A stretch of DNA of 64,000 nt, taken from positions 1-64,000 of the forward strand of contig JAUVYV010000002.1 of NCBI GenBank assembly GCA_030602885.1, written 5' to 3'. A program made the position numbers and the translations under genes. This stretch comes from Phycisphaerales bacterium (GTDB taxonomy: Bacteria > Planctomycetota > Phycisphaerae > Sedimentisphaerales > Anaerobacaceae). Each line of letters starts with the position of its first letter. Position 1 is the first letter of the stretch. Under the pieces are notes generated by a model that worked only from the letters and a program-made list of their open reading frames with translations, was not told where the DNA came from and made no database searches. Shown here piece by piece: positions 12,995-19,997 of the stretch.

Positions 12995-13387
12995 TTACAA
13001 TGAGTTTTCGGTCTGGTCAATCGAATCTTTTTGTTTAAGCTCTTTTGCGATTTTGTCAATGAGCCGCATGGTTTCGAGGGTTTTTTTGAATTTGTCGTCT
13101 CGATGGAGACGCAGGACGGGGCAGAATTTGCTTTGTATTCTCTGAGCGAGTATGGATTGTATTCGGCTTCGCGCGTGTTCTATAGCGGCGAAAGTCTTGT
13201 TTTGTGCCTTTTCGTCCTGGCCGAAGGTGCTGAGAAAGACGTCAGCACGCCGCATGTCCGGGGCGATGTCGACCCTTGTGACGGTGACGAGCCCTGCGAT
13301 TCTGGGGTCGCTGAGATGATTGGCAATGGCGTCGCTGACGGCTTCTTTTATGATGCGAGCAACTTTTTCCTGCCTTCTTGTGGGCAT
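12995..13387 (-). CDS. rbfA: 30S ribosome-binding factor A
   Basis: A 130-residue RbfA, a KH-fold factor that binds the immature 30S subunit during 16S rRNA processing. It begins MPTRRQEKVARIIKEAVSDA, followed by the family segments DPRIAGLVTVTRVDIAPDMR, ADVFLSTFG and CPVLRLHRDD. The frame is open for another 180 codons upstream, but that part is antisense-frame sequence of infB; the ATG at 13387, 28 bp after infB, is the natural start. Gene order nusA-infB-rbfA is the classical arrangement. The C-terminus (KQKDSIDQTENSL) is ordinary. Confidence 0.93.
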   Translation of the reverse strand: MPTRRQEKVARIIKEAVSDAIANHLSDPRIAGLVTVTRVDIAPDMRRADVFLSTFGQDEKAQNKTFAAIEHARSRIQSILAQRIQSKFCPVLRLHRDDKFKKTLETMRLIDKIAKELKQKDSIDQTENSL

Positions 13388-13415
13388 AGTGGTGCGCTCA
13401 GCCGGGGGGTGAGGA

Positions 13416-15977
13416 TTACAGGGTTCTGGCCACTTTGACGATTTCGTAGAAGTCGAGGACGTCGTCGACTTTGATGTCGTCGAATCTTGCGATTTTAATG
13501 CCGCACTCGAATCCGGTTTTGACTTCGCCGATATCATCCTTGAAATGCTTGAGGGAATCGATGGTGAGGTTGTCTCTGATGACGATGTTGTCGCGTATAA
13601 GTCGAATCCTGGCGTTCCTTTTTGCCATTCCGTCACTGACATAGCATCCCGCGATGGTGCCGACTTTGGAAACCTTGAATGTTGCTCTGACGACGGCTCT
13701 TCCGATGGTTTGTTCGCGTTCTTCGGGTTCAAGGAGTCCGACCATGGATTTCTGGAGGTCCTCGGTGATTCGATAGATAATGTTGTAGAGGCGAATATCG
13801 ACCCCTCTTGTTTCGGCGATTTTCTGGACGCGTTCTTCGGGGACAACGTTGAACCCGATGATGATGGCGTTGGAGGCCTCAGCGAGGACGACGTCGCCTT
13901 CGGTGATTCCGCCTGTAGCGGCATGCAGGATTTTTATTTTGATCTCATCGGTGCTGAGGTCGGAGAGGTACTTTGTGAGCACATCGACGGAGCCCTGGAC
14001 GTCCGCTCTTATAACGATATTGAGCTCCTTGACGTTTCCGGCTTCAATTTGAGTGAAGAGGTTGTCGAGTGTAATCTTCGTAGGTTTGGCGAGCGTTCCT
14101 TCTCTGAGCAGGGTCTGATTTTCCTCAGCGGCGGCTTTTGCGGTGTTAATGTCGTCGAGTCGGTAGAACCTGTCGCCGGCGTTTGGGACCGCCTGCAGGC
14201 CCGTGATTTCGACGGGGGTAGAGGATGTGGCGAATTTCACGCTTTTTCCATAGCCGTCCTTGAGTGTTTTTACTCTGCCGCAGGCGGCGCCTGCGAGCAC
14301 GACGTCGCCCTTGTTCAGTCTTCCCTCTTTGATGAGTATGGTTGCGACGGGGCCTCGCCGGGGGGAGAGCTTTGCCTCGACGACCCAGCCGGTGGCAGGG
14401 ATTGTGTCGTCGGCCTTTAGCTCAAGCAGCTCGGCGACGTAGTCGATATGTTCGAGCAGGTCGTCGATGCCCTGGCCTGTGACTGCGCTGGTCTTTACGA
14501 CCTCAGTCTGGCCGCCCCATTCGACGGGGGTCAGCTCGTGTTCCGCCAGTTGAGCGTATATACGGTTTATGTCACAGCCGGGCAGGTCAATTTTGTTGAG
14601 TGCAACGATGACGGGGACATTTGCGGCTTTGGCGTGGTGAATAGCTTCGATTGTCTGAGGCATAACACCGTCGTCGGCGGCAACGACGAGGACGACGACG
14701 TCGGTAATATTTGCGCCCCTGGCTCTCATGGCAGTGAAGGCCTCGTGTCCGGGCGTATCGAGGAACGTTACCCTGCTGTCGCCGACGTTGACCTGATAGG
14801 CGCCTATGTGCTGTGTGATTCCACCGGCTTCACCGGCAGTGACATTGGCAGAGCGGATTTTATCGAGCAGTGATGTTTTTCCGTGGTCAACGTGGCCGAG
14901 CATGGTGGCGACGACGGGACGTTTTCTGAGATTCTTCCTTTCCCTGCTTTCGAATTCCTGTTGTATTTGTTGTTCGAAAGAGGCCTTACGTTCAACAACG
15001 AGCTCGGCGCCGAGCTCGATAGCAACGAGCTCAGCGACATCCGGTGAGATGGTCTGGTTAGCGGTGGCCATTATTCCCTGCTGCATGAGCTTTGCGATTA
15101 TGTCCGAGGCCTTGACGGCCAGGGCGGCGGAGAGGCTCTTTACGATGATTGGCTCGCTGACGACGACCTTTGCCGGTCTGGCGGGAGCAGTGAGGTCTGC
15201 GTAAGATTTTGTGGCGATTCTCCGAGTTGGTCTGAGTCGAAGACCTTCGCCCCGGGCGGCTTCGAGACGGGCCTGCCTTTCCTCGATGTCCCTTTGGCGT
15301 CTGAGGACGGGGAATTTTTGTTTTTTGACTGTTTCGATGCTGCTGTCGGTTTTTCTTCGCCCGTGTGTTCTCTCCTTGTGTCTTTTGGCAGGGTGTTTTT
15401 TGCCGCTTACAGCGATGTCCTTGTCGTCTTCATCGGAGTACATCAGAGGTTCGGTTATTGGCTCGTCGTATTTTGGTCTGCGTTTTGGTCCTGGGGGGGG
15501 CTTGGGCGGTTCAGGCGCCTCAACTCTGACGACCTGAGGTCCGCTGAGCTTAGCGGGTTCGGGTTTTTCGAGCATAGGGCCGGCAGGGACTATGGGTTCA
15601 GGCTCGGGCTCAGGAGCTATGGGCTGCCGCGGAGGGGTTTTTTCTTCGGGTTCGGCGCAAGGTTCTGCAACGGGAAAAGTCTGGTCGGCTACGGCGGTGA
15701 CGTCCTGGTGTGGTTCGGGCAGTTCTTCTTTTTTGGCCTTTGTTTTCTTTTTGGCCCTCTTTACGCGCACCTTTTTGAGGTCGACCTTGTCGGCGGTTTC
15801 GACGGTGGTGATATGCTCACCTTCGCTAAACCACTCATGGATGGTGGCGGCAAGTCCGGCAGAGATAGTGGACATGTGGTTTTTGACGTCGAGACCCTCG
15901 TCCCGGCACTTTTTCACGATGGCAGTGCTCTTGACGCCAAGCTCTTTTGCCAGAATGTAAACCCTTGTATTAGCCAA
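13416..15977 (-). CDS. infB: Translation initiation factor IF-2
   Basis: An 853-residue IF-2, the GTPase that places initiator tRNA on the 30S subunit. An N-terminal IF2-N helix domain (1-50) is followed by a long, charged, proline-rich linker (about 60-250) and a second IF2-N-like segment (about 280-330). The GTPase domain starts near 355 with GHVDHGKTS (361-369), then [15 protein letters not shown] and a TSA-type motif. Domains II-IV complete the family layout to VARTL at the end. It lies 18 bp after nusA and is clearly co-transcribed. The linker is low complexity but in frame throughout. Confidence 0.97.
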
Positions 15978-15995: not shown

Positions 15996-17237
15996 TTATT
16001 GCTGCCGGGGGCTATCCGCTGACTGGGTGCTATCAGTATCGGCTTGCTGCTGGAGGATATCCTCAGCTTGATTTTGCTTCGATTCGGCGGCGATGGCCTT
16101 TGCTTCTTCGACGGCGGCATCGACAAGCTTTTGGGCGAGGTCGGGTTCGATGCCAAGCTCAGTGGTCAACGGTTCCGGGCCTACGTCGTCCAGGTCCAAA
16201 ACTGAGATGACACCGAGGGCAATGAGTTTATCTACAAGGGTATCGTCGGCTTCCGGGACGGCTTTGACACAATTTGCGAGCCGTTCGATACCCTGGTTAT
16301 ATTCGTTTGGAGTGAGAATATCGATGTCCCATCCGGTAAGTCGTGCGGCGAGCCGGACGTTCTGGCCGTGCTTGCCGATGGCGAGACTGAGCTGGTCTTC
16401 ATCGACGACGACGGTAGCTCTTCCGAGCTCAAAACAGAGCGCAATTTCGCTGGCTCGCGCGGGCATAAGTGCGTTCGTGATGAGTATCTGGGAGGAGTCA
16501 TTCCAACGGACGATGTCGATTTTTTCGCCTCCGAGCTCTTCGACGATGTTTTTGATTCTGCTTCCGCGGACACCGACGCAAGCGCCGACGGGGTCAACTT
16601 TTTCGTCATAGGAGGCGACAGCGACTTTGGTACGGTATCCCGCTTCTCTGGCAAGCACTCTTATTTCGATGATTTCTTCTGCAATTTCGGGCACTTCCAG
16701 CTCGAAGAGCCGTTTGATGAAGTCCGGGTGGGTTCTTGAAAGGATGATTCTGACCTGATTGGAGACTTCTTTTACATCGAGGATGAGGCATCTGATTCTT
16801 TCGCCGGGCCTGTGATTCTGTCCTACGATCTGCTCACCTTTTGGCATGAATCCCTCGGTTCTGTGGCTGAGACTGACGATGAGCGTACCGCCTTCATATC
16901 TGACGACTGAGCCGCTCGTAACCTCGCCTCTTCTCTGGACGAACTCGGTGTAGATACTGTCTCTTTCGTCGGCCCTGATTTTCTGTATCATGACCTGCTT
17001 TGCGGTCTGAGCGGGGATTCTTCCGAGCTTTTTGATGTCGATTTGTTCGTTATCCTTGAATGCGACGACCTGGCCGGTTGAGCGGTCGATGTTAACAACG
17101 ATATCGCTCTCTAAGGCACCGAAATGCTTGCGGACGGCGGAGACCATTGCCTCTTCGAGGTCCAGGAAGATGGATTCCTTGTCGATATTTTTGTCTCGAG
17201 CAATGTTGTCAACGATTCTTACCAGTTCCTGATTCAT
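15996..17237 (-). CDS. nusA: Transcription termination/antitermination factor NusA
   Basis: A 413-residue NusA: N-terminal RNA polymerase-binding domain (1-125), S1 domain (about 130-200, VTSGSVVRYEGGTLIVSLS), two KH domains (about 205-345, with GACVGVRGSRIKNI and SLAIGKHGQNVRLAARL), and a short C-terminal helix-hairpin-helix-like region with an acidic, glutamine-rich end. The usual gene order starts with rimP; here rimP is absent and nusA instead follows a structured leader with an intrinsic terminator 28 nt before its ATG. The GGAAGGAAG Shine-Dalgarno lies between terminator and start, so the terminator could control nusA expression, which would let a termination factor influence its own synthesis. 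Confidence 0.96.
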   Translation of the reverse strand: MNQELVRIVDNIARDKNIDKESIFLDLEEAMVSAVRKHFGALESDIVVNIDRSTGQVVAFKDNEQIDIKKLGRIPAQTAKQVMIQKIRADERDSIYTEFVQRRGEVTSGSVVRYEGGTLIVSLSHRTEGFMPKGEQIVGQNHRPGERIRCLILDVKEVSNQVRIILSRTHPDFIKRLFELEVPEIAEEIIEIRVLAREAGYRTKVAVASYDEKVDPVGACVGVRGSRIKNIVEELGGEKIDIVRWNDSSQILITNALMPARASEIALCFELGRATVVVDEDQLSLAIGKHGQNVRLAARLTGWDIDILTPNEYNQGIERLANCVKAVPEADDTLVDKLIALGVISVLDLDDVGPEPLTTELGIEPDLAQKLVDAAVEEAKAIAAESKQNQAEDILQQQADTDSTQSADSPRQQ

Positions 17238-17264
17238 TTGTGTTTAACTTCCTTCCATAAGGGC

Positions 17265-17294
17265 AAAAAAAAGTGGAAACCCAAAAGTTTCCAC
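17265..17294 (-). terminator. Intrinsic terminator in the nusA 5' region
   Basis: On the minus strand GTGGAAAC-TTTTGG-GTTTCCAC is a perfect 8-bp stem followed by eight T residues. It lies between the promoter/leader and the nusA start codon, with no gene ending just upstream on that strand. It therefore either ends a short RNA or acts as an attenuator for the nusA-infB-rbfA unit. Confidence 0.9.
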
Positions 17295-17525
17295 CTCGTA
17301 CGCGCCAGCATCGCTCGGATGTTGCAGCTTTTGGCCTACAACATAATCTGCCTCCGGTAGCAAGACCCTTTATGCATCCGGCGCCACTGAAGCAGAAACA
17401 CCGGCTTCCCGGCCACCATAGTCGCAGAATCACGGCTGCAAGACCCGGCTGTTCGACTATTCTGCACTGTTTACCAACCCTGTGTACTGCATTTTACCAC
17501 CCTAACATCACTGTTGGTAGCCGTT
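17295..17525 (-). ncRNA. Structured leader RNA upstream of nusA (candidate attenuator or small RNA)
   Basis: Between a good promoter and the terminator lie about 230 nt with several helices and no convincing peptide. Visible elements on the minus strand: TACCAAC/GTTGGTA closing a 34-nt loop (17472-17519), two mutually exclusive helices, ATAGTCG/CGACTAT (17418-17424 with 17454-17460) and GCAGAAT/ATTCTGC (17424-17430 with 17459-17465), a CCGG-GAAG-CCGG hairpin near 17402-17413, and two copies of GGGTCTTGC (17360-17368 and 17438-17446). No known riboswitch class, T-box, tmRNA, RNase P, 6S or SRP signature fits the whole. A 12-mer GGGAAGCCGGTG recalls a cobalamin riboswitch block, but the rest of that motif is missing. 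Confidence 0.55.
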
Positions 17526-17531
17526 AGTCCT

Positions 17532-17561
17532 TATAAACAAAATCACTATAATAATCGTCAA
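17532..17561 (-). promoter_or_regulatory. Promoter of the nusA leader
   Basis: TTGACG and TTTATA on the minus strand are separated by 18 nt. Transcription would start near 17525, at the 5' edge of the first leader helix, which supports the pairing of promoter and structured RNA. Confidence 0.6.
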
Positions 17562-17810
17562 AGCATCCGGTAGCAATAATTTTTTTGGGATATTTGCCTA
17601 AGTTTTTGGGATTTGTCGCAGCGAGGTGCCGGATATGTTGTAAAAGGGCGCAAATAACGTCACTTAGTCGAAATGCAAGGGGGCACGAGACGGGCAAGCG
17701 GGGCGACGGCAGCGTCTGATAAACTCAGCGGCTCAGGTGAAAATAGCCTCTGGGCAGCTCTGCTGAGCGTGATGACGGAGCGGCGGTGCTTTTTGGCATT
17801 GGGTGTGTGA

Positions 17811-19997
17811 TTAGCCGGTGTTCGTGACTGCCACCGCTTCGAGTGTCTGTTCAGCGAGAGAAACACGCTGCTTCGGCAGGGTAAAGAAGAAGGTTGTTCC
17901 TTCGCCGACTTTGGATTCCACCCAGACCCTGCCGTCGTACATTTCAACGATTTTCTTTACGAGGGTCAGGCCTACGCCGGTACTTTCGAACTGGTCTCGT
18001 GCCTGGAGCGTCTGGAAGATTTTGAAGATTTTCTCGAAGTGCTGCTCTTCGATTCCCGGGCCGTTGTCGGAGACACTGAACTTCCAGGAGTCGTCTTCGG
18101 CGATACAGGCGATATTGATAAGGCCCCGGGGCTTGTCCATATATTTGACCGCGTTGCTAAGCAGGTTCTGAAAGACCTGAGATATGCGTGTTCTCTCAGA
18201 GACTATGGTGGGCAGCTCGTTGCGGATTGTAATTTGTATGTTGTCGGGGGCTGAGACCATGTCAATGACTTCAGGAACAAGCTCGTTAAGGTTGATTGAG
18301 GTGTGTTCTTCGCTGATGCGACCGACCCTGGAATACTGAAGGACACCGTCAATTAGATTGTGCATGCGACCGACGCGGCTGGCCAGAAGGTCCATCTGCT
18401 CTTTTCCTTCATCGTCGAGCTTGTCGGCGTAATCGGCACCGAGCCATTCTGTGAGTGATTTGATACCTCGCAGCGGCGCCTTTAGGTCGTGTGATATGAT
18501 GTATGCAAAGTCCTTCAATTCCTTATTCGCGCTTTCGACTTCATTGAGCAGCTGGGCTTGTTTTTCCTCTGCTTTCTTTCGTTCGGTTATGTCGCGAGCG
18601 ACGGCGAGCAGATAGGATTTGTTCTCCTGTTTGATGAACTTGACGTTGATTTCAACGGGGAATGTTGTACCGTTCCGGTGCTTGTGTACGCCTTCGAGGA
18701 TGGCATTAGTTTTCTTTCGGATGTCGGCGACAAGCTCGACCCACTGGTCGTGGTCATGGATTGTTTCATCGATGTCGGCAAGAGTCATATTGAGCAGCTC
18801 ATCTCTTGTGTATCCGAGGGTGTCGCAGGCCCTGTCGTTTACGTCGAGGAACCGTCCCCACTCGGGTTCGACGACGAAAGTAAAGTCATTTGAACGGTCT
18901 ATCAGGTTTCGGAAGAGCTGCAGTTTATCGGCGGTGCGTTTGCGTTCCGCGATAAGGCCAAGCCGTTTGGCGATGGTATTGAGCAGGTCGTGTTCTTCTT
19001 TGAGCAGTGGATTTTCACCGTCCCGGCCTCTGTCACCAAGATAATAGACCTCGATGGTGCCGACCTGCTCGGTACCGATATCTATACTTGCATGTTGGCT
19101 CAGCTCGGTCCTGGTGAAGTTGTCCGTTTTGTACTGCACTCCGTCAAAAATTATTCTCACGCACGTTTGCTCGGGATGCTGATATGTGTCGTGGGCGAGA
19201 GATGTGACCTGCTGAAATATTTCACTCAGAGGGACATCGGGCCGGTCTACGAGTTTGGAAAGGCCGTACAGGCAGTCGAGCTGCCTGACATGTTCCTTGA
19301 GATTGCTCTCGAGCAGCGTCTTTTCGGTGGCATCACGGACGATTGACTGAAGTATTGTCTGGTTGTTCATTTCAGTAACTGTGAGCATAACCTCTGCAGG
19401 GAACTCGGTTCCATCGGTGCGTTTGTACCTGAATTGGAACGAATGCGCGCTCTTTTCGGCGGCGATTTTGGCCATTTGCTCGGCCTTTTCGACGGAAGCT
19501 GTTCCGTCGGGCTGGTGCTGCGGGGTGAAATCGGCAAGTGTTTTTGATGTGAGCTGTTCTTCGGTTTCGCAGCGGAAGAGCTTTACTGCAGCGGGATTAG
19601 CGGCGATGAAGCCCTTTTCACGACTTGCAAGAATAATTGCGTCGCTGGAGGATTTGTAGAGCGTTCTGTAAATCTGCTCACCTGCCTGAAGCAGTTGCTC
19701 GACCTGCTCGCGTTTGCTAAAGGCCCTTTTCAGCGGACAAACGATAAGGCGATAAAGAACGGCCACTGTAATCAGCCCCAGCAGCACCGAGTGCAGAACA
19801 ATATCGATGATGCTCTTTGTGGAGAGCGCATAGAGTAAAGCCAATATGACCGCTTGAGAGAGGAAGACGACGAGCAGAACTTCAAGAAACAGTCTGATGG
19901 GCTTTTCCCTTTCAGGGTGTGAGAAATGTGCGGTTATTGATCCGAGCTTGTTTGCCCTTGAAAGGAGACTGTGGTTTTCGTTCCGGGGCTTGTTCAT
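17811..19997 (-). CDS. Membrane-anchored PAS/GAF sensor histidine kinase
   Basis: A 728-residue kinase. Two hydrophobic segments (about 38-60 and 66-90) anchor it with almost no periplasmic loop. Then follow a PAS domain (about 105-230), a GAF-like domain (about 235-345), a second PAS domain (about 355-470) and the kinase core: HisKA with the phospho-acceptor His in FAYIISHDLKAPLRG, N-box QVFQNLLSNAVKYM, G1 VSDNGPGI and G2 STGVGLTLVKKIVE. With no extracytoplasmic domain it probably senses an internal signal. No response regulator is adjacent, so it is an orphan kinase whose partner lies elsewhere. It is preceded by GGGGGA at good spacing. Confidence 0.9.
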   Translation of the reverse strand: MNKPRNENHSLLSRANKLGSITAHFSHPEREKPIRLFLEVLLVVFLSQAVILALLYALSTKSIIDIVLHSVLLGLITVAVLYRLIVCPLKRAFSKREQVEQLLQAGEQIYRTLYKSSSDAIILASREKGFIAANPAAVKLFRCETEEQLTSKTLADFTPQHQPDGTASVEKAEQMAKIAAEKSAHSFQFRYKRTDGTEFPAEVMLTVTEMNNQTILQSIVRDATEKTLLESNLKEHVRQLDCLYGLSKLVDRPDVPLSEIFQQVTSLAHDTYQHPEQTCVRIIFDGVQYKTDNFTRTELSQHASIDIGTEQVGTIEVYYLGDRGRDGENPLLKEEHDLLNTIAKRLGLIAERKRTADKLQLFRNLIDRSNDFTFVVEPEWGRFLDVNDRACDTLGYTRDELLNMTLADIDETIHDHDQWVELVADIRKKTNAILEGVHKHRNGTTFPVEINVKFIKQENKSYLLAVARDITERKKAEEKQAQLLNEVESANKELKDFAYIISHDLKAPLRGIKSLTEWLGADYADKLDDEGKEQMDLLASRVGRMHNLIDGVLQYSRVGRISEEHTSINLNELVPEVIDMVSAPDNIQITIRNELPTIVSERTRISQVFQNLLSNAVKYMDKPRGLINIACIAEDDSWKFSVSDNGPGIEEQHFEKIFKIFQTLQARDQFESTGVGLTLVKKIVEMYDGRVWVESKVGEGTTFFFTLPKQRVSLAEQTLEAVAVTNTG

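Follow-up and report, generated by a model that had tools for sequence, protein, structure and literature searches.

Attenuators of the trp leader-peptide type carry a short translated leader ORF, together with a terminator and an antiterminator built on a common strand. The known system nearest in kind to the leader described here, the rimP-leader attenuator, belongs to the same operon and has been described as the most ubiquitous bacterial transcription attenuator (Naville and Gautheret 2010, PMC2965389). In its general form, the rimP-leader is a GGGc...gCCC hairpin without a visible antiterminator and with no larger conserved element reported, a tandem antiterminator being possible in some Gammaproteobacteria; the nature of its signal was left hypothetical, with NusA as the proposed regulator (PMC2965389). 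Outside bacteria, the AUG-stop upstream ORF of Arabidopsis NIP5;1 acts by way of boron-dependent ribosome stalling and mRNA decay (PMC11915504).

The leader was analysed in a stretch of 64,000 nucleotides (hereafter the window) from a planctomycete metagenome assembly (3.2 Mb, 97.6% complete), the named relatives of which are Phycisphaerae and Sedimentisphaerales bins. The operon runs on the minus strand in the order nusA, infB, rbfA, as confirmed with Pfam, and its first gene is nusA. The absence of rimP, remarked upon in an earlier note on this DNA, was borne out, with no PF02576 match in this 97.6% complete genome and a positive result of the same search in 10/14 control genomes. A histidine kinase bearing two or more PAS domains (window 17811-19997, minus strand) is encoded directly upstream, on the same strand as the leader. 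The coordinates of the features are collected in Table 1.

Table 1. Features of the nusA leader and its operon in the window, listed in the direction of transcription.
Feature	Position	Strand	Remarks
-35 element, TTGCTA, of the conserved promoter	17571..17576	-	Consensus match; TTG (first three bases) 95-97% conserved in family alignment
-10 element, TATTAT, of the conserved promoter	17548..17553	-	A2 kept in 67/74 and T6 in 74/74 leaders
Promoter of the earlier note, TTGACG-N18-TTTATA	17532..17561 (hexamers 17561-17556, 17537-17532)	-	Present; overlaps the conserved promoter
Helix P1, 5' strand, GGCTACC	17516..17522	-	Pairs with 17417-17411
ORF1 Shine-Dalgarno-like stretch, TTAGGGTGG	17497..17505	-	GAGGTG and variants in relatives
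ORF1, ATG...TAG, MQYTGLVNSAE-stop	17457..17492	-	Codon-level conservation; stop codons interchange in relatives
Helix P1, 3' strand, GGTGGCC	17411..17417	-	Pairs with 17516-17522
Antiterminator strand, GTTTCTGCTTC	17389..17399	-	11 pairs with terminator 5' arm, 17297-17287
P4-like helix, arm GTGGCGCCGG inside antiterminator hairpin	17378..17387	-	Window fold; family P4a/P4b data
Mini-ORF2 Shine-Dalgarno, GGAGG	17351..17355	-	Conserved in nearly all leaders
Mini-ORF2, ATG TTG TAG	17336..17344	-	AUG-stop in most relatives
Hairpin P5, 3' arm	17319..17327	-	Pairs with mini-ORF 17336-17344; inverted repeat, 89% complementary
P4-like helix, partner arm, adjoining terminator	17298..17308	-	Window fold
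Terminator hairpin, GAGGTGGAAACTTTTGGGTTTCCACTTT	17270..17297	-	-14.2 kcal/mol; 97% standard pairs in family
T8 tract of terminator	17265..17272	-	Read from sequence
nusA	15996..17237	-	Pfam NusA_N, KH_5
infB (translation initiation factor IF2)	13416..15977	-	Pfam IF-2, IF2_N, GTP_EFTU
rbfA (5' boundary provisional)	12995..13444	-	Pfam RBFA

A scan with the promoter consensus returned a single match, TTGCTA-N17-TATTAT (17576-17548), from which transcription would start near 17541. The TTGACG-N18-TTTATA sequence previously taken for the promoter is indeed present, but positions 2 and 6 of its -10 element are kept in only 8/74 and 2/74 leaders, far below the counts for TATTAT (Table 1), and it is the less likely promoter. 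At the other end of the leader, the intrinsic terminator had been described as an 8-bp hairpin with a T8 tract; its perfect 8-bp core (GTGGAAAC/GTTTCCAC), the T8 tract and the distance of 27 nt to the nusA ATG all stand, whereas the full stem measures 11-12 bp. A separate promoter for nusA would not fit into the 27 nt between the T tract and the ATG, and the terminator lies upstream of and in line with nusA, the arrangement that characterizes an attenuator. In the form GAAGTGGAAAC...GTTTCCACTTT plus a T tract, the terminator is kept in nearly all family leaders. Many other Planctomycetota (L203-L210, L215-L218 and L219-L258) present an AGTGGG...CCCACT terminator before nusA; this is the signature of the rimP-leader, yet the gene that follows it is nusA and not rimP.

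Similar sequence was found by DNA search in 55/99 related genomes, with all strong matches within the family and a single copy in the window's own genome. At all 29 related loci that could be checked (L003-L030 with nusA found; the window too), the leader lies directly upstream of nusA. NusA searches provided the upstream regions of nearly all 89 family members and 80 named relatives. The set of 74 leaders used below comprises the family and a few near relatives, picked for a terminator and an ORF1 candidate and without regard to mini-ORF2, several family leaders lacking a matching ORF1 being left outside it. No Rfam family reached its gathering score in the leader, and a permissive scan gave one chance match on the other strand, in agreement with the earlier statement that no known RNA family fits. 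The rimP-leader model (RF01770) did not match the leader, and its best score in the genome, found elsewhere, was 23.3 bits against a cut-off of 47; this model is narrow and passed the cut-off in only 1/14 control genomes. The identification of the leader as 6S RNA, tmRNA or RNase P RNA was rejected, each of these being encoded elsewhere in the genome with no match here.

The strand GTTTCTGCTTC is the best complement of the terminator 5' arm in most family leaders, with 11 pairs, two of them G-U. Across the 74 leaders, the pairing of GUUUCUGCUUC with the terminator 5' arm comprised 95% standard pairs, against at most 54% when the partners were slid by 1-3 columns. Of the C/T changes in the antiterminator, 33 fell on the 4 positions opposite G and only 14 on the 5 opposite A, the bias that the antiterminator pairing predicts. 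The antiterminator lies at a nearly constant distance of 48-62 nt past the ORF1 stop, although its distance to the terminator ranges from 83 to 220 nt. When the RNA was folded to the end of the terminator 5' arm, the median predicted probability of the antiterminator was 0.96 (above 0.5 in 68/74 leaders), with 0.98 in the window. Folding of the window RNA at full length put the terminated state (-96.8 kcal/mol) 4.6 kcal/mol below the antiterminated one (-92.2 kcal/mol); the two are close in energy, and the outcome should depend on timing and bound factors. The leader consequently possesses an alternative helix on a terminator arm, conserved in relatives, as attenuators with an antiterminator do, and the mutually exclusive stems noticed earlier are real and are best understood as the terminator and its competitor, the antiterminator. 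Only in the family of the window's genome and in near relatives is the antiterminator clear; across the wider class, a mini-ORF and a terminator are present with no evident antiterminator.

Standard pairs made up 91% of helix P1 (57% at the most after sliding), which has 37 double-change cells, and 88% and 81% of P4a and P4b, respectively, across the family; all three exceeded every one of 300 block shuffles. These values were obtained with helix-wise tests, a column covariation analysis (APC-corrected G-test, whole alignment) having been dominated by relatedness and without a usable ranking. Folded as a single sequence, the window leader was only moderately better than shuffles (z -2.2); the case for leader structure rests on conservation. 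A candidate hairpin, Pu, which would join the last part of ORF1 to the stretch past its stop, had 71% standard pairs and was rarely predicted. The leader folds gave no consistent structure that would sequester the antiterminator until a ribosome acts. Taken together, the fixed synteny with nusA, the conserved terminator, the covarying helices and the conserved antiterminator make it well supported, at the level of comparative sequence, that this element is a cis-acting transcription attenuator of nusA-infB-rbfA, as the earlier note had envisaged in its proposal of terminator-controlled read-through into nusA.

Two short ORFs in the leader, overlooked in the earlier note, are under selection as reading frames, a conclusion supported by the following comparisons. 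In the second, the AUG is directly followed by a stop in 67/74 leaders (UAG 54, UAA 8 and UGA 5), an arrangement found in 0/74 reverse strands and 0/72 upstream control stretches. The window's version, AUG-UUG-UAG, has 3 nt inserted with the stop retained, and the insertion has its match in the opposite arm of P5. A broader definition of the mini-ORF (AUG, at most two codons, stop and Shine-Dalgarno), set after viewing the family and applied identically to the controls, recovered 71/74 family leaders, compared with 0/74 on the reverse strand and 0/72 upstream. The same definition recovered 24/45 leaders of a class-level set, versus 0/45 and 1/45 in controls, and a mini-ORF was found in 29/59 leaders of a larger class set, with 0.7 expected from shuffles. 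At class level, the mini-ORF is mostly AUG-one codon-stop, often AUG-CGN-stop, with the second codon and the stop varying freely, and it lies 37 to 89 nt from the terminator, most often 40-50 nt. The bare AUG-stop in the family and the freedom of the second codon and stop elsewhere indicate that selection acts on a minimal translatable frame, whatever the peptide. That the mini-ORF might be a trait of the whole phylum was rejected, with 1/27 in a wider phylum-level sample. In one planctomycete family outside the window's class (f31), an AUG-UAG or AUG-UAA accompanied by GGAG or GAGG stands some 95-112 nt ahead of the nusA terminator at six loci (L203, L208-L210, L216 and L217), and a seventh AUG-stop was recognized by eye in L205.

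ORF1 is located inside the P1 loop and has the family consensus MVLTGLANSA[EK]-stop, with 11 codons and TAG, TAA or TGA as stops. Among 35 non-redundant 11-codon copies, peptide similarity was higher than in all 500 column shuffles, and internal stops numbered 0 against a shuffle average of 23; a short leader ORF under coding constraint (0/500 shuffles), as expected of leader-peptide attenuators, is therefore present. Differences were commonest at the third codon position (5001, versus 3667 and 3141 at the others), and indels in relatives keep the frame (one 12-nt deletion and several 3-nt insertions), while the GTG in codons 9-10 looks RNA-constrained as well. In L182 and L184, ORF1 reads MVLIGMSSAAQ, and a local deletion and an insertion jointly preserve frame and stop. 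A few family leaders lack a matching ORF1. A precise arrest peptide is unlikely, since distant relatives have different peptides at this place (e.g., MVQTGKVSRAYA) and two family members have a truncated ORF1, MVLTG-stop. Order-level relatives (L061, L063, L066, L082, L190 and L192) have a different ORF1, with 12 codons and of the MVQTGKVSRAYA type, and mini-ORFs of 2-4 codons, with no evident antiterminator and an internal mismatch kept in the terminator stem. A resemblance of ATGGTTTTGACAGG, from the ORF1 of relatives, to a tmRNA motif was dropped, as it is absent from the window's ORF1; a search for this motif at the genome's own tmRNA locus gave nothing useful.

The presence of two conserved short ORFs indicates that translation is at least one input, and since ORF2 usually consists of a start and a stop codon only, the switch probably reads the quality of translation initiation. 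The reading that we favor, and whose truth we regard as evenly balanced, is that of an attenuator of nusA-infB-rbfA that would read translation through the two leader ORFs and exert negative feedback on initiation capacity. The leader RNA can form either the antiterminator hairpin, which encloses P4, P5 and the mini-ORF, or the terminator, the two competing for a shared strand. The mini-ORF AUG is situated in P5, which forms the tip of the antiterminator hairpin, and a ribosome initiating there would open P5 and P4, hinder the antiterminator and let the terminator win. Under weak initiation (little IF2, few ribosomes or cold), the mini-ORF would remain folded, the antiterminator would be the default and IF2 and NusA would be made; good initiation would thus lower both proteins and poor initiation raise them. 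ORF1, from the P1 loop, probably tunes the same decision. The further proposal that the start-stop mini-ORF is a dedicated initiation sensor setting read-through into the operon of IF2 is more tentative, and we lean slightly away from it. A ribosome on this frame would take at most one or two steps, and its occupancy would report initiation and early termination, the factors read being IF2 and possibly release and recycling factors. If true, a bacterial start-stop attenuator would extend across the class Phycisphaerae and at least one other planctomycete family. When the ribosome was modelled as an unpaired stretch on either ORF, the predicted probability of the antiterminator was unchanged, ribosome bulk and transcription timing being outside the reach of such folding; the switching step accordingly rests on an assumed steric effect.

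An alternative scheme, possible but rather unlikely in our estimation, is that NusA stimulates termination at the leader hairpin, with the antiterminator setting the basal level and the ORFs only modulating folding or protecting the RNA. NusA control is plausible in view of Bacillus subtilis, for which a review (PMC12288461) states that nusA is controlled by termination in its leader under stimulation by NusA, and of a reported NusA effect on the Escherichia coli operon (references in PMC2965389). Besides, NusA was named the best candidate regulator of the rimP-leader (PMC2965389), its gene opens the operon here and a terminator before nusA is widespread in the phylum. This scheme nevertheless leaves the conserved AUG-stop with its Shine-Dalgarno and the conserved ORF1 unexplained, but NusA autoregulation is compatible with translation sensing and may operate at the same terminator.

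As the constrained folding does not show the proposed effect of the ribosome, the opposite sign was also retained as a rival, in which translation of the leader ORFs favors the antiterminator and active translation turns the operon on. A ribosome bound at GGAGG, for instance, would free the antiterminator strand, which can also pair with GAGGCAGA. The minimum-energy fold of the full-length window RNA, in its terminated state, does pair the antiterminator strand with the GGAGG region, and this pairing comprises 82% standard pairs in the family. However, its outer pairs are poorly kept, its probability is about zero in ensemble folds up to the terminator 5' arm, and a pyrimidine strand is easily complementary to GGAGG by chance, for which reasons this sign is considered improbable. 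The conserved blocks that stay unpaired near the antiterminator and P1 could belong to a riboswitch or protein-binding leader, in which they would be the binding site for a small molecule, a ribosomal protein or an initiation protein and translation of the ORFs would be secondary; the lack of an Rfam match, and the concentration of much of the conservation on Shine-Dalgarno, start, stop and pairing positions, make this very improbable. An independent small RNA that neighbors nusA by chance, the other option of the earlier note, would agree with the element's own promoter and terminator and the lack of a known family, but is scarcely credible as the main function given that every checked locus directly adjoins nusA and that a terminator arm is common to the antiterminator.

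The favored translation-sensing attenuator can be compared with the known systems as follows. As in B. subtilis nusA attenuation, a leader terminator would govern read-through into the nusA operon, but the portion of PMC12288461 considered describes NusA-stimulated termination only and leaves conserved leader ORFs unmentioned. With the trp type, the leader shares a short ORF and a terminator and antiterminator on the same strand; it differs in having no run of regulatory codons, in an ORF1 peptide that drifts between clades and in a further ORF just one to three codons long. The AUG directly followed by a stop codon recalls NIP5;1, where ribosomes stall at this element (PMC11915504); NIP5;1 is eukaryotic and unrelated in descent, and is thus an analogue only. 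The literature searched yielded no bacterial AUG-stop attenuator, which is weak evidence given its thin coverage of subscription journals. The rimP-leader (RF01770) shares with this leader an intrinsic terminator placed shortly ahead of the gene that opens the nusA-infB operon and NusA as a candidate feedback regulator; here, however, rimP is missing, the hairpin is GTGGAAAC...GTTTCCAC instead of GGGc...gCCC, and the leader has in addition an antiterminator, a number of conserved helices and a pair of short ORFs. The AGTGGG...CCCACT terminators before nusA in other Planctomycetota make common descent possible, and the window leader may be a derived form of the rimP-leader. The parts added in this lineage suggest what the nusA-infB attenuator senses, as the minimal ORF allows little but initiation and termination. 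If confirmed, the element would tie the supply of IF2 and NusA to initiation capacity and provide a simple bacterial initiation reporter, and it would show that selection can keep an ORF of one to three codons, invisible to annotation pipelines, as a sensor.
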